Part shown: positions 9,777 to 15,765 of the stretch, piece after piece | How positions within the stretch are numbered: the stretch's first letter is position 1 | Layout: each line of letters begins with the position of its first letter | NCBI RefSeq assembly: GCF_024298825.1 | Contig: NZ_CP101153.1 | Location: forward strand, 930,001 to 994,000 | DNA: 64,000 bases | Direction of reading: 5' to 3' | From: Haloglomus salinum | GTDB taxonomy: Archaea; Halobacteriota; Halobacteria; Halobacteriales; Haloarculaceae | Program-made: the position numbers and the translations under genes | Notes under the pieces: model-generated | Seen by the model: the letters and a program-made list of their open reading frames with translations, nothing else | Database searches by the model: none | Told to the model about the DNA's origin: nothing

Positions 9777-11246
9777 CTACATGAAATCGCCTAGCCCGGA
9801 CTGCTGGTCGTCATCCTCCGCGGCCTCCGCGTCGGCCTCGCGGCCCTCCTCCTCCCCGTCGCCCGAGCCATCGTCACCGCCACCGAGCGTCGCCTGCGCG
9901 ACTTCCTCGTCTTCGCCGTCGGCATCGTCACCCTCCTCCCCGTCCATCTCCGACTCCGCCACACCACCAGCGAACGCGCCACCCGAATGCTCCACCGCCT
10001 CCTGCTCGCGCAGTTCCTCTGCGTCGGCCACGATGTCCTGCACCTTGTTCGTCGACTCGCCGCTGCCCGTGACGAAGGAGACGTGCTCTGCCTCCAGTTC
10101 GTAGCGGGCGGCCATCAACACCGTCAACTCGCGATTCTTGCAGTGGTGGGTCATCACCGCGAGGAACGGCATGATCTCACGCCGAGCGGTCGCCGTCGAC
10201 ACCCCGGCGGACTCGGCGATGCGCTCGGCGATGTAGTCCCGCGTCGAGTCCCGGTACGACCGATAGGGGGCGCCGCCGTAGCGCGTCCAGCCACCGCGGT
10301 CGCGGGTACGGGCGGCCGCGACACCCGCCGCGATGTTGTCGGTCGCGTAGCGCCAGTACGTGTAGTTCTGCGTCGCCCGCACGCGTCCGAGCCAGCGGTC
10401 GGCCTTCGCGAGGTAGCCGTACGCGTCAGCCACCTCGTCGCCCTCGTACACCGTCGGGACCTTGTCCTCGACCCACTGGAGCAGGTCGTCGGGCGTCTCG
10501 TCCGTGTCGTAGGCGGTCTGGAGGGCCTCCTCCGGCGACTGCTCCTTGAGCACCGCGTCGAGCAGCGAGAAGATGTCCTGCGTGCGGTCGCGGTCGCTCG
10601 TCGAGACGTCGTCCTCGGTGATGCGGTCCCGCCCCTCGGCGGCGGCCTGCAGGTCCTTGATGGCCCCGCGGAGGTCGCCGTCGTTGGTGCTCGCGATACG
10701 GTCCAGCGCGGCGTCCTCGTACTGGATATCCTCCTTGCGGCAGATGTCCCGGAGGACGGGGAGGATGGAGCGCTTGCCCACGTCCCGGAACTCGATATCC
10801 CGACAGGCGCTCCGCAACCCGCGTGACATCTCGTAGAAGTCGTTGGCGATGAGGACGATGGGCTGGTTGGCCGACTTCACGAGGTCCGTCATCGCGCGGG
10901 CGCCGCCGCGGTCCTTGTGCTGGTGGAGGTTGTCCGCCTCGTCGAGGATGACCAGTTGCCGGCCCGTCGAGGTGAGCGACTGGTTCATCGCCGCGCCGCC
11001 GGCCACCTTCTTGATCTTGTCAGCGGTCCGCGAGTCGCTGGCGTTGAGTTCCATCACCGACCAGCCCATGTCGTTCGCGAGCGCGTGCGCGGCGCTGGTC
11101 TTCCCCACGCCGGGCGCGCCGTAGATGATGACCGCCTCGCCGTGGTCGTCCCACGACCGGGCCCACTCGTGGAGCTGGTCCCGGGCCTTGTCGTTGCCCC
11201 GGACCTCCGACAGCGTCGTGGGCCGGTACTTCTCCGTCCAGTCCAT
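9777..11246 (-). CDS. rfcL: Replication factor C large subunit
   Basis: The clamp-loader large subunit, 489 residues. Walker A is 'GAPGVGKT' (43-50) and Walker B 'LVILDEAD' (98-105); the rest of the AAA+ core and collar domain match archaeal RfcL. The last ~75 residues form an extremely acidic linker of Asp, Glu and Gly that ends in 'QSGLGDFM', a PCNA-interacting (PIP-box-like) peptide at the very C-terminus. With the small subunits (not in the window) it loads PCNA onto primed DNA. A TATA-like element sits about 29 bases before the ATG. Confidence 0.96.
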   Translation of the reverse strand: MDWTEKYRPTTLSEVRGNDKARDQLHEWARSWDDHGEAVIIYGAPGVGKTSAAHALANDMGWSVMELNASDSRTADKIKKVAGGAAMNQSLTSTGRQLVILDEADNLHQHKDRGGARAMTDLVKSANQPIVLIANDFYEMSRGLRSACRDIEFRDVGKRSILPVLRDICRKEDIQYEDAALDRIASTNDGDLRGAIKDLQAAAEGRDRITEDDVSTSDRDRTQDIFSLLDAVLKEQSPEEALQTAYDTDETPDDLLQWVEDKVPTVYEGDEVADAYGYLAKADRWLGRVRATQNYTYWRYATDNIAAGVAAARTRDRGGWTRYGGAPYRSYRDSTRDYIAERIAESAGVSTATARREIMPFLAVMTHHCKNRELTVLMAARYELEAEHVSFVTGSGESTNKVQDIVADAEELREQEAVEHSGGAFAGGVAESEMDGEEGDDADGEDEEVAQATLGGGDDGSGDGEEEGREADAEAAEDDDQQSGLGDFM

Positions 11247-11527
11247 TTAGCGGAGGGAAGCGGGGGTTGGGGTTAGTGGTTGCGGAGGGGCGTCCGTCGA
11301 ACCGAGCGAACGGCACACGAGGGGCACCCGACCCACCCCGACATGAGGTAGCACGGAACTAGCGTCCATTTCCACGAGCTGTTGCACCGACCATCTACAC
11401 TAACAAGCACCCACAATTGACGAGCGTCGACCAATTCCGCCAATACTAGAGCACCATTCAATCGAACGGTTCTCACACGAGGGACGAAGGCAAAGGTACT
11501 ATGGTTGCGTTATATGTATACGAATGT

Positions 11528-12415
11528 ATGCCAAGTGACCGCGGAACCGACCGTCGTTCGTACCTCAAAGCCCTCGCTGCCACTGGCGGCGCCGCGATGC
11601 TCGCAGGCTGTACCGGTGACGGTGGTGACGGTGGCGGCGACGGCGGTGACGGCGGTGACGGCGGCGATGGTGGCAGCTTCATGCCCGCCTCGCTGGACGA
11701 CCTCTCGGGCCACCCCGTCGGCGCGCAGAAGGGGACCACCGGCGAGAGTGTCATCCAGAAGCAGCTCATCGAGCAGAACAAGCTGGAGGAGTCAAACTAC
11801 AACGCCTACGACAACTACACCCTCGCGGTGCAGGACCTGGAGAACGGTAACATCGACGCCATCGTGCTTGACGAACCGGTCGGGAACACGTTCGCCGACC
11901 AGCGCGCCGTGCAGGTCGCGTTCGTCTACGAGACGGGCGAGCGCTACGGCTTCGGCATCCGCCAGGGCGACAGCGACCGCCAGCAGGCCCTCAACGAGGG
12001 GCTCCAGGCTGTCCGCGACAACGGCACCTACGAGGAGCTCCGCAACGAGTGGTTCGGCTCGGAGGACGGCGGCAGCAGTGGCGACAGCGGTGGGAGCGAC
12101 GGTGGCGACGGCGGGTCCGGAGGGCCCGAGATCGTCGCCGGGACCGCGCCGGGGTTCCCGCCGTTCGAGATCAAGCAGGACGGCGAGCTGACCGGGTTCG
12201 ACGTGGAACTGTTCGAGGCCATCGTCGCCGAGACGGAGTACCAGTTCGGCGGCTGGAAGGAGTTCGAGTTCGACGCGCTCATCCCGTCGCTCCGTGACGA
12301 CAAGATCGACGCCATCGCGGCGGCGATGACCATCACCGATGAGCGGGACAACGCCATCGACTTCTCGGACCCGTACTACAGCGCCGACCAGTCAATCATC
12401 GTCCGCGAGAACTGA
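11528..12415 (+). CDS. Circularly permuted amino acid ABC transporter binding protein
   Basis: A 295-residue lipoprotein, Tat-type signal 'RRSYLKALAATGGAAMLAGC' with Cys28, then a Gly/Asp linker. What follows is a family-3 solute-binding domain in reversed order. Residues ~52-177 ('SLDDLSGHPVGAQKGTTGE' to 'NEWFG') are normally the C-terminal half; residues 200-295 ('EIVAGTAPGFPPFE' to 'DQSIIVREN') are normally the N-terminal half. They are joined by a 22-residue Gly/Ser/Asp linker (178-199). Ligand residues look intact: PPFE, Arg273 after 'TITDE', GTTGE and the Asp of 'VLDEP'. The cut falls at the hinge between lobes, where a permuted chain could still fold. The permease gene starts 4 bases later. 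The start could also be an ATG at 11501. Confidence 0.85.
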   Translation: MPSDRGTDRRSYLKALAATGGAAMLAGCTGDGGDGGGDGGDGGDGGDGGSFMPASLDDLSGHPVGAQKGTTGESVIQKQLIEQNKLEESNYNAYDNYTLAVQDLENGNIDAIVLDEPVGNTFADQRAVQVAFVYETGERYGFGIRQGDSDRQQALNEGLQAVRDNGTYEELRNEWFGSEDGGSSGDSGGSDGGDGGSGGPEIVAGTAPGFPPFEIKQDGELTGFDVELFEAIVAETEYQFGGWKEFEFDALIPSLRDDKIDAIAAAMTITDERDNAIDFSDPYYSADQSIIVREN

Positions 12416-12419
12416 GCCG

Positions 12420-13145
12420 ATGACCACTGTGTTCGCGTCGGTCGCCGGTCGGCTCGACCCCGGCGTGGTGCTCCAGGCCGGCGACTGGGCGTTCGTGCTC
12501 AGGAACGCCGACTTCCTGCTCCTCGGCGCCGGAATCACGGTCGCGCTGACACTGACCAGCGTCGTCCTCGGCCTGCTGGCGGGGCTCCCCGCCGGCATCG
12601 TCGAGGTGTACGGCTCCGGCCCCGTCGCGGCCGCGGTGAACCGCGCGGGCGTCCTGCTCCGAGGGACCCCCCTCCTGGTCATCCTGGCGTTCACGTTCTT
12701 CGTCAACCCCATCAACGTCGGCGCGTTCGAGGCCGCGACCCTCGGGCTGGGGCTCCGCAGCGCGGCCTACCAGTCCCAGATCTTCCGTGGCGCCATCCAG
12801 AGCGTCGGCGAGGGGCAGATGGAGGCGGCCCGCTCGGTCGGGATGAGCCAGTTCGAGGCCATCCGGCACGTCGTCGTGCCACAGGCGCTCCGGCGCTCGA
12901 TTCCAGGCTTCCAGAACGAGTTCACCATCGTCCTGAAGGACACCAGCGTCGCCTTCTTCATCGGCCTCTCGGAGCTGCTGACGCGGGGATTCAACCTGTT
13001 CACCCAGCCCGGCCAGTCGACGTCCGTGCTGGAGGTCATCCTCGCGGTCTCGCTGGTCTACTTCGTCCTGACCGTCCTCACCAACCAGGGGCTGGAACTG
13101 CTCGGTCGTCGCTTCGCCATCCCGGGCACGGGAGGTGAACGATGA
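12420..13145 (+). CDS. Polar amino acid ABC transporter permease
   Basis: A 241-residue HisM/GlnP-type inner-membrane subunit with about five membrane helices. The EAA loop that contacts the ATPase is 'EAARSVGMSQFEAIRHVVVP', followed by 'QALRRSIPG'. It presumably forms the translocation pore with the second permease encoded downstream (13903-14895). The ATG at 12420 follows the binding-protein stop by four bases; the 3' end overlaps the ATPase start (ATGA), so translation is coupled. Confidence 0.9.
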   Translation: MTTVFASVAGRLDPGVVLQAGDWAFVLRNADFLLLGAGITVALTLTSVVLGLLAGLPAGIVEVYGSGPVAAAVNRAGVLLRGTPLLVILAFTFFVNPINVGAFEAATLGLGLRSAAYQSQIFRGAIQSVGEGQMEAARSVGMSQFEAIRHVVVPQALRRSIPGFQNEFTIVLKDTSVAFFIGLSELLTRGFNLFTQPGQSTSVLEVILAVSLVYFVLTVLTNQGLELLGRRFAIPGTGGER

Positions 13146-13906
13146 GCGACGCGAACGCGCTCCTCGAGTTCGAGGACGTCCACCAGTCCTACGGCGAGGA
13201 GAAGGTGCTCCGCGGCATCGACTTCGAGATGGAGCGTGGCGACGTGGAGGTCGTCATCGGGCCCTCGGGGAGCGGCAAGTCGACGATGCTCCGCTGTGTG
13301 AACCGCCTCACCGAGATCGATTCCGGCACCATCTACCTCGACGGTGAGCCCGTCACGACCCCGGAGACGGACGTGAACGCGCTCCGGCGTCGGGTCGGGA
13401 TGGTGTTCCAGGATTTCAACCTGTTCGCCCACCGGACCGCGCTGGGCAACGTCACACTCGGGCTGCGCGAGGTGCTGGGCCACTCGAAGGAGGAGGCCCG
13501 CGCCGAGGCGATGAGCCAGCTCGAACGTGTCGGGCTGGCCGACCAGGCCGACTCCTACCCCGCTGAGCTGTCGGGCGGCCAGAAACAGCGCGTCGGCATC
13601 GCCCGCGCGCTGGCGATGGACCCGGAGCTGATGCTGTTCGACGAGCCGACGAGCGCGCTCGACCCCGAACTCATCGGCGAGGTGCTGCGCGTGATGCGTG
13701 ACCTCGCCGACGACGGGATGACGATGCTGTGTGTCACCCACGAGATGGGGTTCGCACAGGAGGCGGCCTCGACCATCTCCTTCCTCGACGAGGGGACGGT
13801 CGTCGAGCGTGGACCGCCCGAGCAGCTGTTCGAGGACCCCGAGCACGAACGGACGGGTGAGTTCCTCGAACGGCTGACCAGCCTCCACGGGGGCCAGCAC
13901 GGATGA
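13142..13906 (+). CDS. Polar amino acid ABC transporter ATP-binding protein
   Basis: A 254-residue GlnQ/HisP-type ATPase. Walker A is 'GPSGSGKST', the signature 'LSGGQKQR', Walker B 'LMLFDEPTSALD' and the H-loop 'VTHEM'. It energises import by the two permeases on either side. Overlaps of four bases (ATGA) at both ends show tight coupling in the operon. Nothing is unusual in its motifs, which argues that the transporter as a whole is functional despite the permuted binding protein. Confidence 0.95.
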   Translation: MSDANALLEFEDVHQSYGEEKVLRGIDFEMERGDVEVVIGPSGSGKSTMLRCVNRLTEIDSGTIYLDGEPVTTPETDVNALRRRVGMVFQDFNLFAHRTALGNVTLGLREVLGHSKEEARAEAMSQLERVGLADQADSYPAELSGGQKQRVGIARALAMDPELMLFDEPTSALDPELIGEVLRVMRDLADDGMTMLCVTHEMGFAQEAASTISFLDEGTVVERGPPEQLFEDPEHERTGEFLERLTSLHGGQHG

Positions 13907-14895
13907 GCACCGAGACCGCCGACGAGCCGGGGAGTTCGGCGACCACACGCGGCACCGTCGGTGTCGAACTCGGCCGGCGACCGCTGTTCTACGCCGTGCT
14001 GGGCCCGTTCTGGGCCTGGCTCGTCGTCCGGTGGGTGTACGACTGGGTAGTCGTCCCGGGGACGAACGTGACCTCGCGGGAGACGTTCTTCCCGACCCAG
14101 CCGTTCGTGTCGGCGGGCGAGGCCCTCCGGCAGGCGGCCGCGCCGGGCCCTCTCGCGGGCCTGCTGGACTGGCTTGCGGGCGGACTGGACTTCATCGCCT
14201 TCGGTATCGAGGCGCTCCCGCAACTCGCAGCCGGTGCCTGGGTCACCATCGTCCTCACCGTCGTCTCTATCCTCGCAGGGCTGGTGCTGGCGGTGCCGCT
14301 GAGCGTGGCCCGGGTCTACGGTAATCGCGTGGCCCGGTATCCCGCACTCGCGGCGACGGAACTCATCCGTGGGACGCCACTGCTCGCACAGCTGTTCGTC
14401 CTCTACTTCGGGCTGGGGCTCACCCAGTACGTCCGGGAGGTGCCCGGCGTCGGCGTGGGCGTCCTGCCCGACACGGCGGTGATGGTCGCGCTCATCGGCT
14501 TCACCATCAACTCGGCGGCCTACCAGTCCGAGTACATCCGGTCGGCGCTGCTGTCGGTCGACTCGGGCCAGCTGACGGCCGGTCGCGCCATCGGCCTCTC
14601 GAAGGTCGACGCCATCCGGCACGTCGTCCTGCCCCAGGGGCTCCGGTTCGCCATCCCGGGCTGGTCGAACGAGCTGGTCTACCTCATCAAGTACTCCTCG
14701 CTGGCCTCGTTCATCACGGTCCGGGAGCTGTTCTTCCGGGCCGAGGCCATCGGCAACGACACCTACCTGTACGTCCAGATCTACACCGCCGCCGCGCTGT
14801 TCTACATCGCGCTGGTCGTCTCGGCGTCGGCGTTCATGAGCTACGTCGAGGGCCGCGTCGCCATCCCCGGGCTGGGGACCAAGGGCCGGCGGTAG
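13903..14895 (+). CDS. Polar amino acid ABC transporter permease, long form
   Basis: A 330-residue second permease. The core resembles the other permease, with EAA-type loop 'GLSKVDAIRHVVLPQGLR'. An N-terminal extension of ~100 residues carries one extra hydrophobic segment ('LFYAVLGPFWAWLVVRWVY') and a linker, a layout seen in GltK/YhdY-like permeases. It probably pairs with the 241-residue permease to make a heterodimeric pore. It is the last gene of the operon; the next gene begins ~58 bases on. Confidence 0.9.
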   Translation: MSTETADEPGSSATTRGTVGVELGRRPLFYAVLGPFWAWLVVRWVYDWVVVPGTNVTSRETFFPTQPFVSAGEALRQAAAPGPLAGLLDWLAGGLDFIAFGIEALPQLAAGAWVTIVLTVVSILAGLVLAVPLSVARVYGNRVARYPALAATELIRGTPLLAQLFVLYFGLGLTQYVREVPGVGVGVLPDTAVMVALIGFTINSAAYQSEYIRSALLSVDSGQLTAGRAIGLSKVDAIRHVVLPQGLRFAIPGWSNELVYLIKYSSLASFITVRELFFRAEAIGNDTYLYVQIYTAAALFYIALVVSASAFMSYVEGRVAIPGLGTKGRR

Positions 14896-14952
14896 GTCGC
14901 GGCCACCACACCCGCCGAAACCGCTTTGCCCACCGCGGCCCGCCCTCCGGGC

Positions 14953-15765
14953 GTGCCATCGACGGTCGTCCACGTCGCCTTCGGGCTCCTCGTCGCTGCA
15001 GCCGTGCTCGGGCCCTACTTCGACCGTCGGGCCCTGCTCGCGGTCGCGGCCGCCGTCGTCTTCGTCGACCTGGACACCGTCACGAGCCTCGCCCTCGAAT
15101 CGACCCACCGGGCGCTGTTCCACACGGTCCTCATCCCGCTGTTCGCCGCGACCTACCTGTACGCGGAGACGCACCTGGGCGAGCGCTCGCTGGTCCGCGA
15201 GCGGTACGGGGACAGAGGCGTGCGGGTGGCGTGGGCCGCCATCGCCGCGGTCGTCGTCTCGGCCATCGGCCTCGACCTCACCAACCCCGCCGGGGTGAAC
15301 CTCCTCTACCCGCTTCACGACCAGTTCTACGCATTCGACGGGGCCGCCAACTACTCCAGCCAGGCCGGCTTCCAGCAGTCGTTCGTGGAGATCGGGACCG
15401 CGACGCCGGAGCCGAGCGGTGGCGGTGGGGGCGGCGCTCGCGTCGACGTGGGCGGGCAGGGCTCGACCCGCGACTACCACGTCGGCAGCGGTATCGACCC
15501 GGACAAGGGCCGCGAGCCGAAGGACGTCCGGCGGGTCTTCCCGGTCGTCTTCCGGGGCTGGCAGCTCCTGCTCGTCGTCGCGAGCGTCATCGGCCTGACG
15601 GTCCGCGCCCGGCTCTCACCCGAGGTGGCGATGGCCGAGACGACGCGGGCCCCCTCCGAGACGGACGGCGACGCGGAGCCGGCGGTCCGTCGGGTCGGCG
15701 ACGACAGCGCCCCCCTGGATTCGGAGGCCAACGAGACATCCGACGGCGAGGGGGATGCGCCGTGA
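14953..15765 (+). CDS. YdjM-type membrane metal-dependent hydrolase
   Basis: A 270-residue membrane protein of the LexA-regulated/YdjM (DUF457) family. The opening is 'MPSTVVHVAFGLLVAAAV' with a His, later 'STHRALFHTVLIPLF' with further His residues, as in this family of predicted zinc-dependent membrane hydrolases. About five membrane segments are seen, and the C-terminal ~60 residues are an acidic tail. A GTG at 14953 is chosen over an upstream TTG because the paralogue at 16933-17676 starts at the same place. The stop overlaps the GNAT start. Confidence 0.75.
   Translation: MPSTVVHVAFGLLVAAAVLGPYFDRRALLAVAAAVVFVDLDTVTSLALESTHRALFHTVLIPLFAATYLYAETHLGERSLVRERYGDRGVRVAWAAIAAVVVSAIGLDLTNPAGVNLLYPLHDQFYAFDGAANYSSQAGFQQSFVEIGTATPEPSGGGGGGARVDVGGQGSTRDYHVGSGIDPDKGREPKDVRRVFPVVFRGWQLLLVVASVIGLTVRARLSPEVAMAETTRAPSETDGDAEPAVRRVGDDSAPLDSEANETSDGEGDAP

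Follow-up and report, generated by a model that had tools for sequence, protein, structure and literature searches.

A probable natural circular permutation of a family-3 amino-acid-binding lipoprotein in Haloglomus, and a second permutation of the orthologous gene in Natronomonas

In the window, a stretch of 64,000 nucleotides from the genome of Haloglomus salinum, the gene at positions 11528-12415 of the forward strand probably (about 80% in our estimate) encodes a functional amino-acid-binding protein of family 3 (cluster F / type II), circularly permuted and anchored by a lipid, that is part of a polar amino acid ABC importer encoded by four genes; we infer its function from the sequence and from a predicted model. 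The usual second part of the binding domain precedes the usual first part. Sequence comparison confirmed that this order is real and no assembly error, because three Haloglomus assemblies share it and relatives encode the parts in normal order within the corresponding operon. Six Natronomonas genomes, described here, carry the orthologous gene in another permuted order that arose independently.

Results

The binding domain is encoded in swapped order

ORF 11501-12415 most likely starts at the ATG at 11528, giving a 295-residue lipoprotein with the span 11528-12415 that an earlier note on this DNA had proposed. The chain runs from a Tat motif, the lipobox LAGC and a linker to the usual second part, a second linker and the usual first part, and in P0001 the usual second part takes up residues 60-187, the second linker 188-209 and the usual first part 210-304. 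All of the features that follow are on the forward strand. The Tat-type signal (DRRSYLK) and lipobox were recognized in the sequence at 11528-11611, a layout repeated in genome G048, H. irregulare, and H. halophilum, and Cys37 of P0001 is the expected site of the lipid anchor. Behind the lipobox lies linker 1, made of Gly/Asp repeats (11612-11677). The core of lobe 2, usually the middle of the protein and here first, was placed at 11678-11905 by PDB sequence match, structural match and alignment to GlnH; it includes KGTTGE and the equivalent of Asp157 (IVLDEPV). The PDB match, the AlphaFold model and the GlnH alignment put the outgoing hinge strand (VQVAFVYE) and the C-terminal part of lobe 1, with its end NEWFG, at 11906-12061. 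Linker 2 (12062-12127; 22 residues of Gly/Ser/Asp, low pLDDT in the model) is the new joint from the old C terminus to the old N terminus. The N-terminal part of lobe 1 (GTAPGFPPFE to MTITDER), normally first and here last, was located at 12128-12373 by Pfam and PDB matches and the GlnH alignment. The span 12374-12415 holds the incoming hinge strand YYSADQSIIVRE and, behind it, AAC TGA, with which the unpermuted gene also ends (last codon and stop), as comparison of 3' ends showed; the displaced N-terminal part of the protein thus placed last finishes YYSADQSIIVREN.

The Pfam family SBP_bac_3 (PF00497) matched the protein in two stretches with an E value of 1.1e-32 (112.9 bits against a curated cut-off of 26.4). 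In phmmer searches of the PDB, query residues 213-303 aligned to 14-104 of AncQR (4zv1) and query residues 63-186 to 110-232 of the same chain, and ArtJ was also among the proteins that aligned in two stretches in swapped order. These matches bear out the proposal of the earlier note that the halves of a family-3 amino acid binding domain had changed places. PF00497 proteins have the N part before the C part, and the order here is C1-C2-N; on its sequence we therefore file the protein as a permuted variant of the family and no ordinary member.

The remainder of the operon is intact, as had been described. Pfam identified ABC permease 1 (BPD_transp_1) at 12420-13145, the ABC ATPase at 13142-13906 and ABC permease 2 (BPD_transp_1) at 13903-14895, so the adjacent permease and ATPase genes expected of a polar amino acid ABC importer are present. 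The genome is a single contig of 4.19 Mb in which the permuted gene encodes the sole PF00497 protein; the second, normal-order domain that would have undermined the earlier reading was not found in the genome.

Permuted and normal forms coexist in Haloglomus

Homologues with the same order of halves, which the earlier note had proposed to look for, were found in two further genomes. We refer to this form as type A (n = 3: the window genome, G048, and H. irregulare F16-60). The G048 protein has 94% identity to the window protein. On the other hand, H. halophilum ZY41 and the metagenome-assembled genome QS_4_70_19 encode the protein in normal order within the corresponding operon, with about 90% identity (80-94% part by part).

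The repetitive Gly/Asp linkers could mislead an assembler, and one possibility is that the order is an artefact or a collapsed repeat, the true gene being normal or a tandem duplicate. This is extremely improbable, as the three Haloglomus assemblies agree on the order while differing from one another at many positions, the stop codon and operon junction are clean, and six Natronomonas genomes carry a second permutation.

In a tree built on parts restored to normal order, a single origin of type A was not rejected (p-AU 0.6), and the permuted gene's own tree was weakly resolved. Trees of the flanking genes placed H. halophilum as sister to the window genome and rejected the three type A species as a clade. 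Since these species are not one clade by their flanking genes, the history of the gene needs recombination, reversal by allelic replacement, or repeated gain.

When window positions 9777-15765 were compared with loci L043 and L075, the flanking genes were nearest to those of H. halophilum, and the N part of the binding protein and the start of permease 1 were nearer to those of G048. By these sequences, a recombination mosaic surrounds the permuted gene.

A second permutation in Natronomonas

A third order of parts (C-terminal tail, linker, N part, lobe-2 core) was found at six loci, L016, L017, L018, L022, L023, and L030, in as many genomes, including the complete genome of N. marina. Their genus, g15, we take to be Natronomonas, and two further genomes in it to be those of N. 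moolapensis and N. pharaonis. In the tree of restored parts, for which the type B rows served as a bridge in aligning N and C fragments, this type B formed one clade (99/99) adjoining N. pharaonis, whose gene has the normal order, and well removed from type A. The remoteness of the two types indicates that the permutations of these orthologous genes arose independently. As far as sequences go, the same protein has been re-threaded at least twice without disabling it.

Beyond these, no permutant appeared among the matches listed in a first-look scoring of all the genomes searched from four families and an even draw of the order. In a plasmid collection, the sole single record covering >80% of the query was an Enterococcus binding protein/permease, which has tandem domains and is no permutant.

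The internal linker of type B contains 35 bases (GACGCCGGCGACGTCACCGAGGGCGCCGACGGCGG) that are identical across the six species, although DNA divergence between the C-terminal parts reaches 27%. Among 146 genomes of the family, these bases occur once in each type B genome and are absent from the remaining genomes. Such identity is odd for a flexible linker.

N. marina also has a plasmid of 147,277 bases (CP101155). The first 12 kb of this plasmid (L071) share 99-100% identity with plasmids recorded under Halorarius halobius and, in part, with plasmids of Haloglomus halophilum and Haloferacaceae XH8. These matches may reflect mixed cultures or transfer across genera in the very recent past.

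Both cuts map inside lobe 2

The predicted structure asked for in the earlier note was obtained with AlphaFold (AF2) for both types. The type A model (pLDDT 85, pTM 0.77) has two confident lobes and is poorly predicted mainly in the linkers; type B was modelled with a pLDDT of 89 and a pTM of 0.84. Because structural aligners are sequential, the type A lobes matched amino-acid-binding proteins separately: residues 21-113 superposed on 123-209 of TmArgBP (6ggv; Z 12.7, 1.6 A over 86 residues) and the other lobe on domain 1 of TmArgBP (Z 10.2, 2.5 A over 95 residues). In type B, the N part and lobe-2 core superposed together on TmArgBP (Z 17.0, 2.3 A over 169 residues). The predicted type A model thus has the two-lobe fold of PF00497, lobe by lobe, and the confidence values and separate lobe matches suggest that the lobes would close in both models. 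Whole-chain structural matches to OpuAC were rejected as kinship, the lobes being paired in swapped register, and the OpuA paper makes no statement on permutation.

In GlnH, lobe 1 comprises residues 5-84/186-224, the small domain (lobe 2) 90-180, and the hinges 85-89 and 181-185 (PMC7400645). Alignment to GlnH placed the type A cut at about residue 97, directly past the incoming hinge strand, which is the first strand of lobe 2, and the type B cut at about 168-172, directly before the last strand of lobe 2, which leads to the second hinge. By this mapping both cuts are inside lobe 2, beside a hinge strand. The cut had been put at the inter-lobe hinge in the earlier note; it does adjoin a hinge strand but lies a few residues past the hinge itself (GlnH ~97 as opposed to 85-89). 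We also rejected the idea that each permutation costs one hinge crossing, since cuts inside lobe 2 leave both crossings in place, and the two crossings should persist in type A and type B alike.

The two forms thus share an orthologous operon, a permuted order, bridged old termini and new termini on lobe 2. They differ in that type B is cut before the outgoing hinge strand and type A after the incoming one. In both, the linker bridging the old termini would make lobe 1 continuous. With the new termini on lobe 2, the membrane anchor would be on lobe 2 rather than lobe 1, a predicted shift of the lipid anchor common to both permuted forms.

The anchor shift raises the possibility that haloarchaeal amino-acid-binding lipoproteins have been re-permuted repeatedly under selection, with both hinge crossings kept, because an anchor on lobe 2 suits tethered capture. 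Termini are on lobe 2 in both independent permutations, and a tethering advantage has been suggested for the treponemal protein TpMglB-2 (PMC4990184). However, most haloarchaeal orthologues have the normal order and yet also a lipobox, about 25 flexible residues may make the position of the anchor hardly matter, and permuted and normal alleles coexist within one genus. We regard selection of this kind as doubtful; it would add to the best explanation without replacing it. If true, tether position would be a tunable property of ABC binding proteins.

Ligand residues are conserved and the gene is under purifying selection

The equivalents of GlnH F13, F50, T70, R75, and D157 are identical in three of three type A, six of six type B, and four normal proteins, and all of the compared proteins, of type A, type B, and normal order alike, have A and Q in place of D10 and K115, respectively. 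The alpha-amino-acid contacts of the family (GlnH T70, R75, D157) are therefore present, and retention of ligand-binding residues on both pieces, expected in the earlier note, is seen in the alignment. Since the contact residues are kept and positions 10 and 115 have changed alike in all, permutation has likely left the ligand unchanged, and this may be an amino acid other than glutamine.

The corresponding locus in the related genome G084 is broken and has neither signal nor N part, and it could be speculated that the permuted gene is likewise a decaying remnant that has lost binding and transport. This is very unlikely, as dN/dS among the three type A genes is 0.07-0.31, indicating purifying selection, the open frame and ligand residues are kept in three species, and its operon is intact, with no other family-3 binding protein. 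In the working protein that we favor, the lobes, still joined by the two hinge crossings, would close around an alpha-amino acid in the manner of GlnH/ArtJ, linker 2 would bridge the old termini in lobe 1, and the new termini and membrane anchor would be on lobe 2.

Relation to known binding proteins

Natural circular permutation has usually been inferred for proteins that are ancient and have diverged. In the present case an orthologous gene is permuted in some members of a genus and normal in others at ~90% identity, and an independent second permutation occurs in a related genus. The interest of the case is that it can be tested, given two independent events and extant near-twins of normal order: the closely matched pairs give access to the path of mutation (duplication followed by deletion at low-complexity linkers), to the tolerance of a two-lobe protein for re-threading, and to anchoring as a driver of permutation.

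Like the family-3 binding proteins of PF00497 (GlnH, ArtJ, AncQR, TmArgBP), the Haloglomus protein has both domain parts, the ligand residues and permease-ATPase-permease partners, and lipid-anchored orthologues occur in H. halophilum and most haloarchaea seen. In contrast to them, its parts are reversed, its new termini and anchor are on lobe 2, and a linker bridges the old termini.

A precedent exists in Treponema pallidum, where the lipid-anchored ABC binding protein TpMglB-2 (Tp0684), encoded in an ABC gene cluster, is a natural circular permutant for which a Type Ic / Cluster Bc was proposed (PMC4990184). The likeness lies in natural permutation of a lipid-anchored binding protein within such a cluster. 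TpMglB-2, however, has a type I / cluster B sugar-binding fold and an N-lobe permutation that raises the hinge crossings from three to four, whereas the Haloglomus protein is of type II / cluster F, is cut in lobe 2 and keeps its crossings. It is permuted but lacks the cluster B fold, as its sequence and lobe matches go to family-3, type II amino-acid binders. Moreover, the moved part of TpMglB-2 matches poorly in sequence, while here normal-order relatives are ~90% identical. We found no report of permuted family-3 or haloarchaeal binding proteins in open-access papers. The statement in the earlier note that no natural permutation of this class was known from haloarchaea holds within those papers; the treponemal protein, of another structural class, had already been described (PMC4990184).

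Tandem binding domains of the GlnPQ type (6h30) hold a joint of C part, linker and N part, which is the intermediate needed for a permutation. They differ in consisting of two complete domains, fused to a permease and unpermuted; the chain studied here has one N part and one C part.

Origin of the permuted gene

The type A genes end in GTC CGC GAG AAC TGA, then G(C/T)CGATG, and the normal H. halophilum gene in TTC GGC TCG AAC TGA ACCGATG. The permuted genes have thus preserved the normal gene's final codon and stop together with the intergenic bases; their operon junction is clean, and the signal and linker 1 are in their original place at the 5' end. Retention of the original 3' end, signal and linker fits an in-frame tandem fusion from which two deletions removed the outer parts. 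The gene would first have read N-C, linker, N-C in lobe parts; one deletion, with its end inside the Gly/Asp linker, would then have taken the first N part, and the other, by which ...CGC GAG came to abut the original AAC TGA, would have taken the last C part. The permuted allele may subsequently have spread among Haloglomus species by recombination, or the normal form may have replaced it in some. The normal hinge of H. halophilum reads GAG GGC GGC GAT TTC, and GGCGGCGAY is also found in the linker repeats, a possible microhomology.

Alternatively, one part may have moved without duplication and trimming, by cut-and-paste of the N part or by excision of a gene circle that was opened elsewhere and re-integrated. 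No tandem N-C-N-C intermediate was found among the matches listed in genome searches for homologues, which would favor such a move. We nevertheless consider it unlikely: the front signal and linker 1, the terminal AAC TGA and the intergenic bases are all in their original places, as predicted by deletions trimming a tandem, and GGCGGCGAY, shared by the linker and the hinge junction of the normal H. halophilum gene, would serve as microhomology. Tandem fusion with loss of the outer parts, already suggested in the earlier note, is therefore the origin we favor.

At the orthologous locus of G084 (L028, G084:C6:495172-498609), the lobe-2 core stands directly behind the upstream gene, and the signal, linker and N part are missing. 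Its sequence is that of a broken copy, whose deletion end almost coincides with the type A cut. Normal-order orthologues (L029, L039, and L040) have low-complexity Gly/Ser/Asn/Thr tails past the last helix, and tails of this kind could be an alternative source of the permuted gene's linker.
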